Assembly (NCBI RefSeq): GCF_900066015.1
Contig: NZ_LN890655.1
Coordinates: forward strand, 1,838,726-1,902,725
DNA: 64,000 bases
Source of the DNA: Candidatus Promineifilum breve
GTDB taxonomy: Bacteria; Chloroflexota; Anaerolineae; Promineifilales; Promineifilaceae
Direction of reading: 5' to 3'
The translations under genes and the position numbers were made by a program. The notes beneath the pieces are model-generated. The model ran no database searches, was not told the DNA's origin, and saw only the letters and a list, made by a program, of their open reading frames with translations. Below, piece after piece: positions 12,479 through 44,932 of this stretch. The stretch's first letter is position 1; each line of letters begins with the position of its first letter.

Positions 12479-13336
12479 TAAGGCAAATACCGTGCCGAAG
12501 CGCCCGGTCCGGCCGCGCTCGGCGCGATGGGAAAAGAACAGATCAGTGCGGCAGGCGGTGCAGAGGTCGGCCGTTTCAATGGCGCGCACCCCGGCCGCGG
12601 CCAGATTGCGCCGGTTGGCTTCGGGAAGATCGAAGTTGCGGCGGTCGCCGTTCTTCTCCCCTGCTCCCCTGCTCCCCTGCTCCCCTGCCCTTCTTAACAA
12701 CTCCTCCGCGCCCGCAAACACCCCCCGCACACCATCGATCACCTCCGCCCCCACCTCGTAGCAGCACGGCCCGATGCACGGCCCAATGGCGGCGACGAGA
12801 TCGGCCGGGTCGCTGTCGAAGTGGGCGGTCATGGCCCGCACCATCGCCCCCGGCAGGTCGGCCACCGTGCCGCGCCAGCCGGCATGGCCCAGCCCAATGG
12901 CCCGGCGGCGCGGATCATAGAGGAAGATGGGCGCGCAGTCGGCGAAGTTCATGCTCAGCACGCAGCCGGGCTGATCGGTGACCAGACCATCGACGTGCTC
13001 CACCCACGTGCCGTTGTCGGCCTGGGTCACGCGGGCCACATCGGCCCCGTGCACCAGATGGGCATGGACGACGCTGTCGGTGTCGCGGCCATAGAGGCCA
13101 TACACCCGCCGCCGGTTGGCATAGACCCGGTCGCGCTCGTCGGGCACGGACATACTCATATTGAGCGAATGGAACGGCGCGGCGCTGACGCCGCCGTGGC
13201 GGGAAAAGACCGCGTGGCGAACCGCGCCGTTATCGGGCAGCGCGCCGAAGCGGAAGTAATGCAAGCCGTCGTGGTCAAAAGCTCTCACAGTCGGTTCCTC
13301 GCCCGCAAGGCTACTGCAAAGCGGCCCGGCGGACAA
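12473..13336 (-). CDS. pgeF: PgeF/YfiH-family (LACC1-like) protein
   Basis: A 287-residue member of the YfiH/laccase-domain family, which acts as purine nucleoside phosphorylase/adenosine deaminase-type enzyme or in peptidoglycan editing. The metal site residues are visible: His in HLVHGADV, Cys in NFADCAPI and His in GHAGWRG, with the C-terminal CTACRTDLFFSHRAERGRTGRF. The exact start is uncertain; the first dozen residues (MSAGPLCSSLAG) are not family-like. A stretch reading RRAGEQGSRGAGEK, between the GVRGVF and NFDLPEANRRNL segments, comes from a G-rich tandem repeat inserted in frame. The stop codon lies in another repeat family. Confidence 0.87.
   Translation of the reverse strand: MSAGPLCSSLAGEEPTVRAFDHDGLHYFRFGALPDNGAVRHAVFSRHGGVSAAPFHSLNMSMSVPDERDRVYANRRRVYGLYGRDTDSVVHAHLVHGADVARVTQADNGTWVEHVDGLVTDQPGCVLSMNFADCAPIFLYDPRRRAIGLGHAGWRGTVADLPGAMVRAMTAHFDSDPADLVAAIGPCIGPCCYEVGAEVIDGVRGVFAGAEELLRRAGEQGSRGAGEKNGDRRNFDLPEANRRNLAAAGVRAIETADLCTACRTDLFFSHRAERGRTGRFGTVFALM
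12654..12691. repeat. G-rich 8-mer tandem repeat inside pgeF
   Basis: About four and a half tandem copies of CTCCCCTG (GCAGGGGA-type on the other strand) sit inside the pgeF reading frame, adding GEQGSRGAGE-like residues. The same unit builds the long palindromes at 38053-38123, 39306-39403 and 41959-42025, but here only one arm is present. Confidence 0.8.
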
Positions 13337-38052: not shown

Positions 38053-38123
38053 GGGGCAGGGGAGCGGGGGGGCAGGGGAGAAAGGGGGATCACCCCTGCT
38101 CCCCTGCCCCCCTGCTCCCCTGC
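38053..38123. repeat. G-rich palindrome downstream of thiolase gene
   Basis: GCAGGGGAGCGGGG-type left arm and CCCCTGCTCCCCTGC-type right arm, ending 4 bp from the thiolase stop codon. It shares its units with 39306-39403, 41959-42025 and the copy in pgeF. Confidence 0.8.
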
Positions 38124-38127
38124 GCTT

Positions 38128-39285
38128 TCACTCCTCACACGTCAGAATGTGAGTAACCGCCGTCGCCCCCATGCCGCCCAGGTTCTGGGCCAGGCCGACG
38201 CGGGCCCCAACCACCTGACAATCGCCGGCCGTGCCGCGCACCTGCTGGGCCACCTCGACGATCTGATACAGGCCGGTCGCGCCGACGGGATTGCCACGCG
38301 CCTTCAGGCCGCCAAAGGTGCTGATGGGCACGCGCCCGCCGCGGCCGATAGAGCCATCGCGGGCCAGTTCCCAGCCCCGGCCGCGCGCGGCAAAGCCACA
38401 CGCTTCCAGCGACAGAGCGGCCAGAATGGTGAACGAGTCGTGCAGCTCGGCCACGTCGATGTCGGCCGGGGTGAGGCCGGCTTGCTCGTAAGCCCGCCGC
38501 GCGCTGGTTTCGGCCGCGGCCAGCCACAACGTGTCGCGCCGGTCATGGAGGGCCAGCGCGTCGGTGGTCAGGGCCGAGGCGACGATGCGCACCGGCCGGG
38601 CCACCATGTCGGCCGCCCGCTCGGAGGCGGTAACGATGACCGCCGCCGCGCCGTCGCCGGTGGGAGCCTCGTCGAACAGGCTGACCGGCGCGGCGGTCAT
38701 GGTGGCGCTGATGAAGCTCTCCGGCCGCAGCTTGTTGCGATACATGGCCCGCGGATTGGCCGCGCCGTTGGCGTGGGCGTTGACGCTAAAGCCGGCGAAG
38801 TCGGCCAGTTCCAGACCATACTCGTGCATGTAGCGGCGCATCAACAGCGCCGCCGCGCCGCTCAGGGTCTGGCCGTGGATGGCCTCGTAGTCGGCATCCA
38901 GCGCCGTCGCCAGCGCGGCGGGGATGACCGCGCCCGATTCGTCGGTCACTTTCTCGACGCCGACGACCAGGGCCGTCTCTACCAGGCCGCTCTGCACGGC
39001 CAGCACCGCCTGGCGCAGGGCCGCGCCGCCGCTGGCATCGGCCGCTTCCACGGTCAGGGCCTCGCTGCCGCGCAGCCCGGCGAAGTCGGCCACCAGCGCG
39101 CCGAGGTGATTTTGGTTGCTCAATTGCCCGGCCAGCATGTTGCCGACGTAGATGGCGTCGATCTCATGGTGGTGGGCGTCGTCCATGGCCGCCTCGATGG
39201 CGTACCACGCCAGATGGCGGATGGACGTGTCCCAGTGCTCGCGCACGTCGGTTTGGCCGAGGCCGATGATGGATACGTTAGTCAT
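38128..39285 (-). CDS. Thiolase (SCP-x/archaeal type) of the mevalonate cluster, altered active site
   Basis: A 385-residue thiolase-fold protein of the archaeal/SCP-x-like type that pairs with HMG-CoA synthase and DUF35. The fold motifs are clear: IYVGNMLAGQLSNQNHLGALVADFAGL, GDGAAAVIVTASE, AELHDSFTILAALS (H282) and LGGMGATAVTHIL. At the usual nucleophile position the sequence reads VEAADASGGAAL, with Asp83 where Cys is expected, and the GHPxGATG motif reads GNPVGATG with Asn332. Either it is catalytically altered or it plays a structural role. The stop lies 4 bp from a G-rich palindrome. Confidence 0.82.
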   Translation of the reverse strand: MTNVSIIGLGQTDVREHWDTSIRHLAWYAIEAAMDDAHHHEIDAIYVGNMLAGQLSNQNHLGALVADFAGLRGSEALTVEAADASGGAALRQAVLAVQSGLVETALVVGVEKVTDESGAVIPAALATALDADYEAIHGQTLSGAAALLMRRYMHEYGLELADFAGFSVNAHANGAANPRAMYRNKLRPESFISATMTAAPVSLFDEAPTGDGAAAVIVTASERAADMVARPVRIVASALTTDALALHDRRDTLWLAAAETSARRAYEQAGLTPADIDVAELHDSFTILAALSLEACGFAARGRGWELARDGSIGRGGRVPISTFGGLKARGNPVGATGLYQIVEVAQQVRGTAGDCQVVGARVGLAQNLGGMGATAVTHILTCEE

Positions 39286-39305
39286 AGGGTTGTCCGTGGG
39301 GTGAA

Positions 39306-39403
39306 ATGCAGGGGAGCAGGGGTGCGGGGGAGCAGGGGAGAAAGAAAGCCCGGCCAGCGAGTTTCTTCTCTCCCCTGCACTCCTGCTCCCCTGCTCCCCT
39401 GCA
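39306..39403. repeat. G-rich palindrome between HMG-CoA synthase and thiolase genes
   Basis: Tandem GCAGGGGA-type units form a left arm, with inverted units on the right, around a less repetitive centre. The right end (39403) lies 2 bp from the HMG-CoA synthase stop codon at 39406-39408. Between two cotranscribed genes it would form a very stable RNA hairpin. Confidence 0.8.
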
Positions 39404-39405
39404 TC

Positions 39406-40482
39406 TTAATTCATCTTCAGCTTTTCGCGGAAGCGCGAGTACGTGGCGTAATCGATCGGCGTGCGGCGGGCGATGTAGGCTTCGGTGCTCGTCGCCCGGC
39501 CGCGGGCCTCGGCCAGCCGCTCGGTCGTGGTCAGGTCGAAGGCATCGCTGCCCGCGCCGGAGCCGTAGCTGACCATCAGGATGCGGTCGCCCGGCTCGGC
39601 CACGTCGAGGATGGCCGTCAGGCCGATCATCGTCGAGCCGCTGTAGGTGTTGCCGATGCGGCCGCTGAGCAGCCCCGGCGCGATCTGCGCCTTGCTGAAG
39701 CCCAGCAGCTTGGCCGCCCGTTCGGGGAACTTGACGTTGGGCTGGTGGAAGACGGCCCACTGATAATCGGCGGCCGTCGTGCCCATGAGTTCCATCAGCC
39801 GCTCGGCCGCGCCGGTGACATGCTTGAAGTAGGCCGGCTCGCCGGTGAAACGGTCGCCGTGGGAGGGGTAGTTGGCGTGCTCGCGCCGCCAGAAGTCGGG
39901 CGTGTCGGTGACGAAGGAGAAGGAGCCGTTGATCATCGCCAGCGCCTCGGCACCGGGGCCGACAAGGATGGCCGCGCCACCGGCGGCGGCGGTGTACTCC
40001 AGCGCGTCGCCGGGGCGGCCCTGGGCGGTATCCATGCCGATGCTCAGCGCGTACTTCGCCATGCCGGAGCCGACAAAACCCATCGCCGCCTGCATCGCCT
40101 CGGTGCCCGCCTTGCAGGCGAACTCCCAGTCGGCGGCCTGCGTATTGGGCACGGCGCCGATGGCCTCGGCCACAATGGTGCTGCTGGGCTTCACGGCGTA
40201 GGGGTGGCTCTCGCTGCCCACCCACACGGCGCGAATCTCCTGCGGGTCGATCTGGGCGCGCAGCAGCGCGTCGCGGGCGGCCTCGATCGACATGGTGACC
40301 ACGTCCTCATCCAGGCCGTTGACCGCCTTTTCCTCGATGGGCGTGCCGCCCGTGCCGCCTTTCCACATGCGTGATATTTCGGTCGCCGGCAGCCGGTAGC
40401 GCGGTACGTAGGCCCCATAGCCGACAATGCCCACCGGCCGGTCGGGTCGCAATAATCCATTTCGGGGATCGTTATCGCTCAT
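39406..40482 (-). CDS. Hydroxymethylglutaryl-CoA synthase, archaeal type
   Basis: A 358-residue HMG-CoA synthase condensing acetyl-CoA and acetoacetyl-CoA. The N-terminal [16 protein letters not shown] and [24 protein letters not shown] are typical of the archaeal group. Catalytic Cys123 lies in [11 protein letters not shown] and His245 in [12 protein letters not shown]. Upper mevalonate step, cytoplasm; it likely forms a complex with the thiolase and DUF35 protein. Length fits the archaeal enzymes and is shorter than eukaryotic ones. The start lies 10 bp from the palindrome at 40493. Confidence 0.92.
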
Positions 40483-40492
40483 TGATTCCTCT

Positions 40493-40560
40493 CGTAGGCG
40501 GAACTTCCAGTTCCGTCATCTTAATTCTTGGTTCCGGTGGAACTGGAAGTTCCACCTACG
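40493..40560. repeat. GGAACTTCCAGTTCC palindrome between HMGR and HMGS genes
   Basis: 22-bp arms (40493-40514 and 40539-40560) are inverted copies with one mismatch and surround a 24-nt centre. The right arm contains the HMG-CoA reductase stop codon (complement of 40556-40558), and the left end is 10 bp from the synthase start codon. It occupies the whole gap between the two genes. Confidence 0.8.
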
Positions 40561-41860
40561 CGGCGAGCAGTTCCCGCGCCCGTTCGACGCGGATATTGCC
40601 CTCTTTCACCAGTTGGTCGGCGATGCGTTGCACGTCGCCGTCTGGCGCGCCGGCGGCCAGGGCCACCTGCCGCGCGTGGAGGCGCATGTGGCCGCGCTGG
40701 ATGCCATGGGTCGCCAGGGCGCGGATGGCGGCCAGGTTCTGGGCCAGGCCGACGCTGGCCATGACTTCGGCCAGTTCGACGGCCGACTCCACGGCCAATA
40801 TCTTCATCGCCACGCGGGCCGTGGGATGCACCTTCGTGGCCCCGCCAACCGTGCCCACGGCCAGCGGCAGGGTGATCTCGCCGTAGAGGTCGCCGTTCTC
40901 GTCCACGTGCCAATCGGTCAGGGCGCTATAGACGCCCGGCCGCTTGCCGTGGATAGCGGCGTAGCTGTGCGCCCCGGCCTCGATGGCCCGCCAGTCGTTG
41001 CCGGTGGCGATGCACACGGCGTCGATGCCGTTCATAATGCCCTTGTTGTGGGTCGCCGCGCGATAGGGGTCGGCCACGGCGAAGGCGTTGGCTTCGGCGA
41101 TGAGCCGCGCTACCTGCCGGCCGGGTATGTCGGGGATGGTCAGCTCGTCGGCGGGGATGGTGCAGCGGGCGGTCGTCGTGCGCCGGTCGGCCAGATTGGA
41201 CAGGATGCGCAACACGGCCCGGCCGCCGGTCAGTTCGGCCACGCGCGCGGCGATGGCTTCTACGGCGGTGTTGATGGTGTTGGCCCCCATCGCGTCGCGG
41301 GTGTCGTAGAGCAGGTGGACGACCAGCATGGGGCCGACGGCCGTCTCCGGGAAGGGCCGGGCTTCCAAGCCACGCGCCCCGCCGCCGTAGCGCACGATGC
41401 TCTCGCCCACCGCGTCGGCCAGGGCCATCAGTTCGGCGCTATGGGCCAGCACGGCCTGCCGCGCGGCTTCCAGGTCGGGCATGTCGAGCACCTGAATCTG
41501 GCCGATCATGATCGGCTCGGTCGATTCGGCCCGGAAGCCGCCGCCGGCGCGGATGAGCTTGGCGGCGTGGCTGATGGCCGCCAGGACGCTCGGCTCTTCC
41601 ACGGCCATCGGGATGAGGTAGTCGCGGCCGTTGATGAAGAAATTGGCGGCGATACCCAGCGGCAAGGCGTAGGTGCCGACGACGTTTTCGATCATCAAAT
41701 CAGCCTGCCGCGGCTGGAGGCCGTTGCCGGCCAGCACCGCGTGCTCCTCGTCACTCAGCCCCGCCCACTCGGCGACGACCGCCGCCCGCTCGGCCAGCCC
41801 CAGCTTATAGAAGCCGGGCAGGCGCGATGATTTCACTTCCAGCTCCACGACGTTTTCCAT
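40556..41860 (-). CDS. Hydroxymethylglutaryl-CoA reductase, class II-like
   Basis: A 434-residue HMG-CoA reductase that reduces HMG-CoA to mevalonate. It starts MENVVELEVKSSRLPGFYKLGLAER, the normal class II beginning; the frame is open 25 codons further upstream, but those are not family-like. Catalytic residues are present: Glu58 in IENVVGTYALPLGIAANF, Lys and Asp in THNKGIMNGIDAVCIATGNDWRAIEAG, and His in QRGHMRLHARQVA. It is the first gene of the mevalonate cluster. Cofactor preference cannot be told from sequence alone. Confidence 0.93.
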   Translation of the reverse strand: MENVVELEVKSSRLPGFYKLGLAERAAVVAEWAGLSDEEHAVLAGNGLQPRQADLMIENVVGTYALPLGIAANFFINGRDYLIPMAVEEPSVLAAISHAAKLIRAGGGFRAESTEPIMIGQIQVLDMPDLEAARQAVLAHSAELMALADAVGESIVRYGGGARGLEARPFPETAVGPMLVVHLLYDTRDAMGANTINTAVEAIAARVAELTGGRAVLRILSNLADRRTTTARCTIPADELTIPDIPGRQVARLIAEANAFAVADPYRAATHNKGIMNGIDAVCIATGNDWRAIEAGAHSYAAIHGKRPGVYSALTDWHVDENGDLYGEITLPLAVGTVGGATKVHPTARVAMKILAVESAVELAEVMASVGLAQNLAAIRALATHGIQRGHMRLHARQVALAAGAPDGDVQRIADQLVKEGNIRVERARELLAA

Positions 41861-41958
41861 TGGTGTTTCACCCTGAGATGTATAACAGGTTTTGGGATTA
41901 ATCGATGCGGGACTGTAGCGCCGAATTGCTGTCAAAATCTATCGAGGTTGGGGGGAGC

Positions 41959-42025
41959 GCAGGGGAGCAGGGGTGCAGGGGTGCAGGGGCGATCCCCCTG
42001 CACCCCTGCTCCCCTGCTCCCCTGC
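41959..42025. repeat. G-rich palindrome upstream of rel-like gene
   Basis: Arms of tandem GCAGGGGA/GCAGGGGT units and their inverted copies flank a short GGGCGATCCCC centre. It lies in the divergent gap between the reductase and rel-like genes, about 25 bp before a TATAAT box. Its frame continues into the rel-like gene, but that extension is not coding. Confidence 0.8.
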
Positions 42026-42126: not shown

Positions 42127-44388
42127 ATGCTTAATATGACGCATCGCAAACTGGAGATAGCCGACGCCGAGCAATTATTCGCTCTTACCAATAGTTATTT
42201 GCCGACGGCCGAGCGCGCTCAGATCGAGAAAGCGTACGAGTTCGCTCGCCGGGAACACGGCACGGAACGCCGCAATACCGGCGAGCTTTTTTTTACCCAC
42301 CCGCTGGCTGTCGCCACCTATCTGGCCGAATATCGGCTGGACGCCCCCGCAATCTCAGCCGCCCTGCTGCATGACATCGCCGAAGACACGCCCATCTTGC
42401 TGAGTCAGATCGAGGACGAGTTCAGCGCCGAGGTGGCCCAACTGGTTGACGGCGTGACCAAGCTGAAGGAGGTCACTCGCCGGGTAGCCAAGGAAAGCAC
42501 CAGGATGTCGCCCTTGGATCTGAAGCAGGCTACCTTGCGGAAGCTCATGTTAGCCATGACGGTCGATGTGCGCACGGTCATCATCAAGCTCTTCGACCGG
42601 CTGCACAACATGCGCACCATCCACGGTATGTCGGCCCAAAGCCAGAAGGCCAAGGCCGAGGAGACGCTGGCCGTCTATGCCCCGCTGGCCTACCGGCTGG
42701 GCATGTGGCAAGTGAAGGGCGAACTGGAAGGCCGCTCGCTGGAGGTGCTCCAGCCCCACGCGTTCGAGACCATTCAGGCTGAACTGGAGCGCCTCTTCCG
42801 CGTCCAGGAACCCCTGTTCGACGTCGTCCGCACGCGCATCATTGACTATCTGGGGGCCAACGGCCTGCCGGTGCGGGACGTGAAGATGGCCCCGGAGAGC
42901 ATCTACACCGTTTTCCGCGACCTGGAAAAGCAGGACGCGGGCTATCGCGAAGTCGACCGCATGTTGCGCATCACCGTGCTGCTGGATGATCCCATCCAGT
43001 GCTACACCGCCCTGGGCCACATCCACCATCTGTGGCCGGCCGTGCCCAATCATTTCGACGACTATATCTCCGTGCGCCGCGAGAACCTGTACCAATCGCT
43101 CCACACCACCGTCCAGGCCGACGGCCAACATCTCAAGGTGCGCCTGCGCACGGTGGATATGGACCTCATCGCCCAGATCGGCGTGCTGGCCCGCTGGAAG
43201 TACGCCAAGACGCCGCTATGGTCGGCCGGTCTGGCCGAGCGCGTCGAGGCTTTTTTCGCCAGTATCTCCAGCAGCATCGGCGTGGACCCGCAAGACCCCG
43301 GCAGTGGCGTCCGCAGCGCCATGGAGGACGTGCTGGGTGAGCAAATTCGCGTCTATTCCAAGGATGGCGACGCCGTCGACCTGGCCCAGGGGGGCACGCC
43401 CATCGATTTCGCCTACCGCATCCATTCCGAACTGGGCAACCAATGCCTGGAAGCGCAGGTGAATGACCTGCCCTTCCCACTCAACCGCCCATTGCGCAAC
43501 GGCGATCAGGTGCGTATTTGCAAGAACGCCCGCGCCCAGCCCATGCGCGCCTGGCTCGACGAAGACCTGGGCTACATCACCACCACCTATGCCCGGATGC
43601 GAGCCCGGCGCTGGTTCCGCCGCCTGTCGGAAGACGAAGCGATCCGGCAGGGGCGCGATATCCTGCTCCACGAATTGACGATGTTGGGCTTGCCCGATCA
43701 GTCGCATGAGGCCATCGCCGGCCTGTTCGGCTATGAGGATGCCGACGAACTGTACTACAATCTCGGCCGCGCCGAATTGCTGCCGACGGTGCTCTCGACG
43801 CGCATCCTGTCCGGCCATTGGACGGAGGGCGACAGCCTGCCGGTGGGCAGCGTGGTGGCCGCCGCCGACGGTACGCGTTACATCATCACCAATGCCGGCA
43901 GCCACCGGCTGCACATCTGCGCCACCTGCGACCCACGCCCGCGCGACAGCATCGTCGGCTATCTGCGCCTGGACAACATCCTCACCGTCCACCGCGACAC
44001 GTGCCGCACGCTCAATGCCGGTCGCGGCCGGCCGGAGGTCTCCCATCGCCTGCTCAAGCTGGGTTGGGGCGAAACCGAGCCGCAGCAGGCGCGTATCATC
44101 CCCCTCTACGTTGACGTCTATGACCGCCCCGGCTTGCTGAACGAGATGACCCGCTTGATGCGCGAGAAGGACGTCAACATCCGCCACATCTGCACCATCG
44201 AACGCAAGCGGGACGGCGAACTGATGATCGAGATGGAGCTGGAGTTGCTCAGCCCGCGCCATATGGTGCGCATCCTGCATCAGATCGAAGCGCTGGTCAA
44301 CGTCAAGGCCGTGCGTTGCGTCCCCGAAGGGCGCGAGAATGGACACGATCCGGGCCGGCAATCGCCGACTAACTATAAACCGGAGTGA
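42127..44388 (+). CDS. RelA/SpoT homologue with intact hydrolase and degraded synthetase domain
   Basis: A 753-residue long RSH protein: HD hydrolase (about 40-200), synthetase-like domain (about 235-365), TGS (about 405-470), helical region, zinc-finger-like CATCDPRPRDSIVGYL and a C-terminal ACT domain. Hydrolase residues are present: H58, H82-D83, E86-D87 (LLHDIAEDT) and N161 (DRLHNMRT). By alignment with the streptococcal Rel enzyme, synthetase residues Arg241, Lys243, Lys251 and Glu323 are replaced by A255, E257, D265 and K337, while Asp264, Tyr308 and His312 equivalents remain (D277, Y322, H326). It is therefore predicted to degrade but not make (p)ppGpp. ATG at 42127 or 42136 starts the conserved part. 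Confidence 0.9.
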   Translation: MLNMTHRKLEIADAEQLFALTNSYLPTAERAQIEKAYEFARREHGTERRNTGELFFTHPLAVATYLAEYRLDAPAISAALLHDIAEDTPILLSQIEDEFSAEVAQLVDGVTKLKEVTRRVAKESTRMSPLDLKQATLRKLMLAMTVDVRTVIIKLFDRLHNMRTIHGMSAQSQKAKAEETLAVYAPLAYRLGMWQVKGELEGRSLEVLQPHAFETIQAELERLFRVQEPLFDVVRTRIIDYLGANGLPVRDVKMAPESIYTVFRDLEKQDAGYREVDRMLRITVLLDDPIQCYTALGHIHHLWPAVPNHFDDYISVRRENLYQSLHTTVQADGQHLKVRLRTVDMDLIAQIGVLARWKYAKTPLWSAGLAERVEAFFASISSSIGVDPQDPGSGVRSAMEDVLGEQIRVYSKDGDAVDLAQGGTPIDFAYRIHSELGNQCLEAQVNDLPFPLNRPLRNGDQVRICKNARAQPMRAWLDEDLGYITTTYARMRARRWFRRLSEDEAIRQGRDILLHELTMLGLPDQSHEAIAGLFGYEDADELYYNLGRAELLPTVLSTRILSGHWTEGDSLPVGSVVAAADGTRYIITNAGSHRLHICATCDPRPRDSIVGYLRLDNILTVHRDTCRTLNAGRGRPEVSHRLLKLGWGETEPQQARIIPLYVDVYDRPGLLNEMTRLMREKDVNIRHICTIERKRDGELMIEMELELLSPRHMVRILHQIEALVNVKAVRCVPEGRENGHDPGRQSPTNYKPE

Positions 44389-44638: not shown

Positions 44639-44932
44639 ATGTTGAAGAAGAAATACGTGAAGTCGAAGGACGAATACGAAGTCACCTTCGAACTGCCGGC
44701 CGAGGCCACGGATGTGGCCCTGATCTGCGAAGCCAACGGCTGGGAGCCGGTGGCGATGAAGAAGAGCAAGGGCACGTTCGCGGCCAAGCTGCGCCTGCCG
44801 GCCAATGGCAGCTACCAGTACCGCTTCCTGGTCAACAACAGCGAGTGGGTCAACGACGAAGCCGCCGACCGCTACGTCGCCAACGAGCACGGCACCACCA
44901 ACAGCGTGGTCGAGACGTATAGCGTCAACTAA
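44639..44932 (+). CDS. Isoamylase early-set / CBM48-like small protein
   Basis: A 97-residue single-domain protein: MLKKKYVKSKDEYEVTFELPAEATDVALICEANGWEPVAMKK and YQYRFLVNNSEWVNDEAADRYVANEHGTTNSVV fit the AMPK/CBM48 early-set fold that binds alpha-glucans. AAGGAGAT precedes the ATG, the promoter is strong and a terminator follows directly, so it is a monocistronic gene. It may bind glycogen or regulate a partner enzyme; it has no catalytic domain. Confidence 0.87.
   Translation: MLKKKYVKSKDEYEVTFELPAEATDVALICEANGWEPVAMKKSKGTFAAKLRLPANGSYQYRFLVNNSEWVNDEAADRYVANEHGTTNSVVETYSVN

Follow-up and report, generated by a model that had tools for sequence, protein, structure and literature searches.

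The gene at positions 42127–44388 of the window, which is the whole 64,000-nucleotide stretch of Candidatus Promineifilum breve DNA analysed here, very likely encodes a long RSH (copy B) that hydrolyses (p)ppGpp and cannot synthesize it. It would be one product of a duplicated Rel, the sister copy of which (copy A) has lost the hydrolase. Taken as a whole, we hold this to be the best explanation of the residue states of the two proteins, their distribution and phylogeny, and the selection acting on their domains.

Domain architecture and the hydrolase site

Translation of copy B may begin at an ATG at either 42127 or 42136, and the frame upstream is open to 41905. The features of the gene and of its downstream neighbor are as follows.

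42127–44388, + strand: long RSH gene, copy B [Hs], 753 aa, predicted (p)ppGpp hydrolase only (open reading frame; Pfam architecture HD-(pseudo)SYN-TGS-ACT)
42232–42708, + strand: HD hydrolase domain, intact, aa 36–194 (Pfam HD_4, PF13328, E 1.5e-42)
42370–42387, + strand: HDxxED motif, H82-D83-E86-D87 (identical in 39/39 Rels)
42889–42921, + strand: lost ATP-side motif, A255, E257, D265, at Rel R241, K243, K251 (R/K/K in 39/39 other Rels)
42898–43209, + strand: pseudo-synthetase domain, aa 258–361 (Pfam RelA_SpoT, PF04607, E 1.2e-17)
42958–42960, + strand: Arg278 at the position of catalytic Asp264 (Asp in 39/39 other Rels)
43135–43143, + strand: Lys337 and Arg339 at the positions of catalytic Glu323 and Gln325 (E and Q in 39/39 other Rels)
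43345–43524, + strand: TGS domain, aa 407–466 (PF02824, E 1.2e-19)
43918–44004, + strand: zinc-finger-like segment, C598-x2-C601...H622...C626 (four residues invariant in orthologues)
44101–44313, + strand: ACT/RRM domain, aa 659–729 (Pfam ACT_4, PF13291, E 1.6e-9)
44639–44932, + strand: 97-aa gene with an AMPK1_CBM glycogen-binding-like domain (PF16561, E 8e-9)

Matches above cut-off to all four Pfam models (HD_4, RelA_SpoT, TGS, and ACT_4) place copy B in the long RSH superfamily. It is not a bifunctional Rel[HS], the intact synthetase site of which it lacks, nor, with 753 aa and four domains, a small alarmone hydrolase consisting of an HD domain alone. Intact HD catalytic residues, lost synthetase residues, and a separate synthetase in the genome together correspond to the [Hs] type.

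Residues were compared in a reference alignment of 40 rows, comprising copy B and 39 Rels drawn from many phyla. All 39 Rels share with copy B the hydrolase residues R49, H58, H82-D83, E86-D87, D157, and N161, in agreement with a sequence-only reading that had judged the HD site complete. That reading had also considered the TGS, zinc-finger-like, and ACT regions to be kept. TGS and ACT have Pfam matches, and C598, C601, H622, and C626 are invariant in orthologues. The zinc-finger-like segment has C598-x2-C601 in copy B where other Rels have an adjacent CC pair; in the alignment, the columns of C600 and C601 are conserved across the other Rels.

Loss of the synthetase site

Copy B carries six replacements in the synthetase site, R241A, K243E, K251D, D264R, E323K, and Q325R in streptococcal-type numbering. 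At the corresponding alignment positions 255, 257, 265, 278, 337, and 339, all 39 other Rels have R, K, K, D, E, and Q, and copy B has A, E, D, R, K, and R, the last of these changes falling within the VQIRT motif of Rel. The four substitutions originally proposed (at Arg241, Lys243, Lys251, and Glu323) are thus confirmed, and two more had been overlooked, Arg278 at the catalytic Asp264 and Arg339 at Gln325. All 16 orthologues in alignment A1 have Lys at position 337, and among further orthologues read the position is Arg once (L224). On the nucleotide-binding side, copy B still has Tyr322, His326, and Asn320.

The earlier argument that conserved fold markers exclude misalignment holds for Tyr322 and His326, which align in 39/39 Rels; the third marker, Asp277, sits in a Tyr column (Tyr in 28/39), with no gap nearby. 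Alignment error can nevertheless be ruled out, as had been asserted, given the gap-free alignment around the substitutions and the agreement of all 39 Rels. Chance or sequencing error is likewise excluded because orthologues across the whole order share the same loss.

A partner with the opposite loss

A separate synthetase had been predicted to lie elsewhere in the genome, and a search for a second RSH or a small synthetase had been recommended. The genome, 99.96% complete, is made up of contigs of 3.99 and 1.00 Mb and one small contig. Three of its loci match the RelA_SpoT profile: the window gene, C1:3922065, and one on contig 2. The second of these, copy A, also encodes a long RSH, but here the synthetase is intact and the HD site broken, HDxxED having become HDTLLP and DRLHN having become DSLQD; it fits the predicted enzyme, and no small synthetase was recovered by the search. 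The third RSH (1160 aa) is degenerate at both catalytic sites. An HD_4 search returned the same three loci only, with no small hydrolase among its matches. Neither search of this 99.96% complete genome revealed an additional alarmone enzyme of the RelA_SpoT-only or HD-only kind. Judged by residues, a working synthetase site would then remain in a single gene of this inventory and a working hydrolase site in one other.

In most of family f1, copy A retains the HD metal ligands (equivalents of H53, H77, D78, and D144), and its presumed loss of hydrolysis is deduced solely from the changes at E81, D82, R145, and N148. Copy A resembles the RelA[hS] of Beta- and Gammaproteobacteria in combining an intact, EFDD-bearing synthetase with a degenerate HD domain and a TGS/ACT C terminus, and its best match among solved structures is E. 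coli RelA (467 bits); it differs from RelA[hS] in its origin, which the tree places independently, within the Anaerolineae. EFDD is also found in intact single-copy Rels of this class and hence does not mark the split here; splitting cannot be recognized from an EXDD as opposed to an RXKD motif.

The HD site of copy B might conceivably act mainly on another nucleotide, such as (p)ppApp, pGpp, or NADPH, in which case copy B would not be the alarmone hydrolase of the cell. Mesh1 and (p)ppApp hydrolase, relatives within HD_4, do share the fold and match the AlphaFold2 (AF2) model of copy B. This alternative is nonetheless unlikely: the HD residues of copy B are those of every Rel in the alignment, and they form the sole intact alarmone HD site in the genome, such that the partner synthetase would lack a counter-enzyme.

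The third RSH is one of several RSH proteins of ∼1,100–1,200 aa with an intact TGS domain. Both catalytic sites of this long RSH are degenerate, and a STAND/AAA ATPase is fused to its C terminus (G000:C2:105021-108500 = L004:5022-8504); a gene for another AAA/STAND ATPase comes immediately after it (L004:8533-9966). The same arrangement is seen at L196, L197, L198, L199, and L233–L237. Where the downstream sequence suffices for a judgment, in loci of families f1, f22, and f31, the second gene is present, in several of them with a C-terminal winged helix (Trans_reg_C). The fusion stands alone at L052; in G004, where it is also present, the contig ends soon after. Several members of the group keep the HD metal ligands and have Lys at Glu81. 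PADLOC gave no convincing match on the RSH-ATPase loci tested.

Reciprocal relaxation of the two copies

Mean identities by domain, calculated over 17 genomes for copies A and B and compared with single Rels, mirror the residue losses. The HD domain has a mean identity of 43% in copy A, 61% in copy B, and 58% in single Rels; the corresponding values are 61, 50, and 62% for the synthetase domain and 71, 55, and 72% for TGS. The HD domain is better conserved in B than in A in 136/136 genome pairs, and the synthetase domain is better conserved in A than in B in 125/136. Relaxation is therefore reciprocal between the copies as measured by domain identity. The TGS and helical regions are also relaxed in copy B.

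One alternative is a protein inactive in both domains and acting only as a regulator of its partner. The third RSH-like protein of the same genome has lost both sites, and double loss thus does occur in this lineage. In copy B, however, the HD domain is the best conserved, its catalytic residues are all kept in essentially all orthologues, and the genome would be left without hydrolysis, all of which makes such a pseudoenzyme very improbable.

The dead synthetase domain of copy B is itself under purifying selection, with dN/dS of ∼0.1–0.4 in the least saturated, within-genus pairs, and therefore it is retained for something other than catalysis. This constraint, together with the preserved Tyr322, His326, and Asn320, could also be taken as a sign of weak or altered synthetase activity. 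Replacement of six residues that are identical in 39/39 Rels, including the catalytic Asp and also the Glu that binds Mg, whose place is taken by the Lys invariant in A1, argues in the other direction, as does the SpoT of Acinetobacter baumannii, in which substitution of the catalytic Asp and the Gln accompanies loss of both synthesis and GDP binding (PMC9974481). Residual synthesis by copy B is accordingly highly improbable.

Distribution across the order

Copy B is present in 38 of the 39 genomes of the order (families f1 and f2) that are at least 85% complete; the exception, G016, is a 500-contig draft. The copy B profile scores 797–1266 bits within the order and at most 747 bits against Rels outside it. 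Site losses are complementary in all 26 genomes of the order in which both copies were read residue by residue, a count that includes one hydrolase copy cut by a contig end. Nearly all other genomes of the class have a single RSH matching the profile, and the single Rels read residue by residue nearly all have both sites intact, mostly with EFDD. A strict profile search (E 1e-222) of 201 genomes sampled phylum-wide recovered copy B in two, both of this genus, at a stringency that does not imply absence from other classes.

Two further kinds of divergent RSH were encountered. In family f5 (L019 of G024 and others), the single Rel has a divergent synthetase region, and in many genomes of this family the RelA_SpoT model matches in two separate pieces, perhaps reflecting a long insertion; the catalytic residues are intact in the one copy read. 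L049 (G009) carries a third, very divergent RSH near a contig end, with altered synthetase motifs and an altered HD domain in which HDxxED has YA at the ED positions.

Phylogeny, intermediates, and a probable second split

Copies A and B each form one clade (SH-aLRT 94 and 99, respectively) in trees in which canonical Rels from named genomes served as outgroup only, and both clades persist when the synthetase region is left out (SH-aLRT 92 and 99). Acquisition of a proteobacterial SpoT by horizontal transfer, suggested only by the functional state that copy B shares with Moraxellaceae SpoT, is very improbable: copy B scores only 139 bits with A. baumannii SpoT, fewer than with the bifunctional Rels or with E. 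coli RelA, and the trees set it beside other Chloroflexota copies and apart from their proteobacterial rows, none of them a gammaproteobacterial SpoT. Against the NCBIfam SpoT equivalog, copy B reaches 371 bits, far under the cut-off of 947.

The five genomes of family f47 and G023 (f4) contain a second long RSH with an intact HD site and lost synthetase residues; these same genomes also keep a Rel with both sites, in one of which Asp82 is Glu. Their [Hs] copies group with copy B whether or not the synthetase columns are included. Loss of the synthetase is milder in the f47 hydrolase-only copies, several of which keep Asp264 and Glu323.

A tandem version occurs in family f59. In G400 (L200:6684-11059), an [Hs] gene is followed after 32 bp by an [hS] gene of the same orientation. 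In G414 (L207:3371-8011), the corresponding genes share four bases, and the assembly has a frameshift in the second. Because the G400 [Hs] copy groups among local Anaerolineae Rels and apart from copy B, the split probably arose at least twice independently, the evidence for a separate f59 origin being the SH-aLRT values of two trees and the tandem gene order.

Structure model and proposed mechanism

The AF2 model of copy B (mean pLDDT 82.8, pTM 0.59) confirms the fold. Its compact N-terminal half superposes on pppGpp-bound S. aureus Rel with an rmsd of 1.3 across 326 residues, and the pseudo-synthetase folds like SAS synthetases (Z 14.6). The alignment supplied to AF2 held only Rel homologues, and the model is thus a guide to fold and not to a conformational or B-specific state.

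We propose that a bifunctional Rel was duplicated within the Chloroflexota to give rise to copy B, and that in this order the sister copy at C1:3922065 lost its hydrolase instead, which would place synthesis and hydrolysis on two separately encoded proteins. Copy B, having lost synthesis, would hydrolyse (p)ppGpp at its intact Mn-type HD site, and its pseudo-synthetase and C-terminal domains probably act as a scaffold and allosteric switch that keep this site active. The precedent, with both assays and a structure, is the SpoT of A. baumannii, a long RSH of the [Hs] type. Its HD site is kept in the active state by the core, TGS, and other C-terminal domains, its pseudo-synthetase plays a regulatory part, and its hydrolysis does not respond to ribosomes (PMC9974481).

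The sequence-only reading had further proposed that ribosome sensing might control the hydrolase. This suggestion finds no support in the lower TGS conservation of copy B (55% versus 71% in the partner and 72% in single Rels) or in the ribosome insensitivity of A. baumannii SpoT. Copy A, with its conserved TGS domain, would be the likelier ribosome sensor of the two, answering starved ribosomes.

A more speculative proposal joins two ideas: that Rel splitting in the Anaerolineae is recurrent, with at least two independent cases, one as a tandem operon, passing through a stable intermediate of an intact Rel plus a hydrolase-only copy, and that in this order the dead pocket with its near-invariant Lys at the former catalytic Glu now serves as a guanine-nucleotide sensor tuning hydrolysis. 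In combination, we regard these as a tentative possibility that is more probably wrong than right.

Genomic surroundings

The 97-aa AMPK1_CBM gene adjoins copy B in most family genomes examined (L033, L034, L036–L039, L044–L048, and others); this proximity might conceivably reflect a connection of glycogen with alarmone turnover. On the opposite side, at 38128–41935 on the − strand, lies a divergent cluster of thiolase-like, HMG-CoA synthase-like (KAS III fold), and HMG-CoA reductase genes that is the head of a mevalonate pathway. A dispersed palindromic repeat of GCAGGGGAGCAGGGG units occurs in the window at 12658–12688, 38056–38123, 39308–39402, and 41959–42025, one of which falls between the HMG-CoA reductase and RSH genes; its 15-mer has 329 exact copies genome-wide, compared with 0 for the reversed control.

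Relation to known systems

Division of RSH function between a synthetase and a hydrolase is already known as a kind, previously only from Proteobacteria. In Moraxellaceae, the split is complete, with RelA[hS] and SpoT[Hs] derived from the old RelA/SpoT pair (PMC3153485, PMC9974481). Atkinson et al. (2011) described Chloroflexi as having a bifunctional Rel, with or without small hydrolases (PMC3153485), and among the open papers searched we found none that links Chloroflexota with the stringent response and bifunctional Rel, nor any activity measurement on a Chloroflexota RSH.

Copy B and Moraxellaceae SpoT[Hs] (A. baumannii SpoT, PDB 7QPR) are both long RSHs with an intact HD site, loss of the catalytic Asp and Gln, a retained pseudo-synthetase, and a synthetase-only RSH as partner. 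They differ in descent, copy B grouping with Chloroflexota Rels, and in the details of the dead site: copy B has Lys at the catalytic Glu, Arg at the catalytic Asp, and a retained Tyr322, whereas A. baumannii SpoT has Asn at Tyr322. Compared with bifunctional Rel[HS], copy B shares the domain order, HD site, TGS, and ACT but lacks R241, K243, K251, D264, E323, and Q325. The small alarmone hydrolases Mesh1, paSpo, and RelH are also hydrolases only, as copy B is predicted to be, but these are single HD domains, whereas copy B keeps the pseudo-SYN, TGS, helical, zinc-finger-like, and ACT regions.

On the predicted activities, the Chloroflexota split is the Moraxellaceae end state reached by independent descent, order-wide and near-universal. 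The lineage, the independent origin, the intermediates, and the tandem version appear to be new, being undescribed in the open papers searched. The living intermediates and the second, tandem case amount to replicate evolutionary experiments on why a bifunctional alarmone enzyme splits, and they bear on which copy keeps ribosome sensing and on the role of a retained dead catalytic domain.
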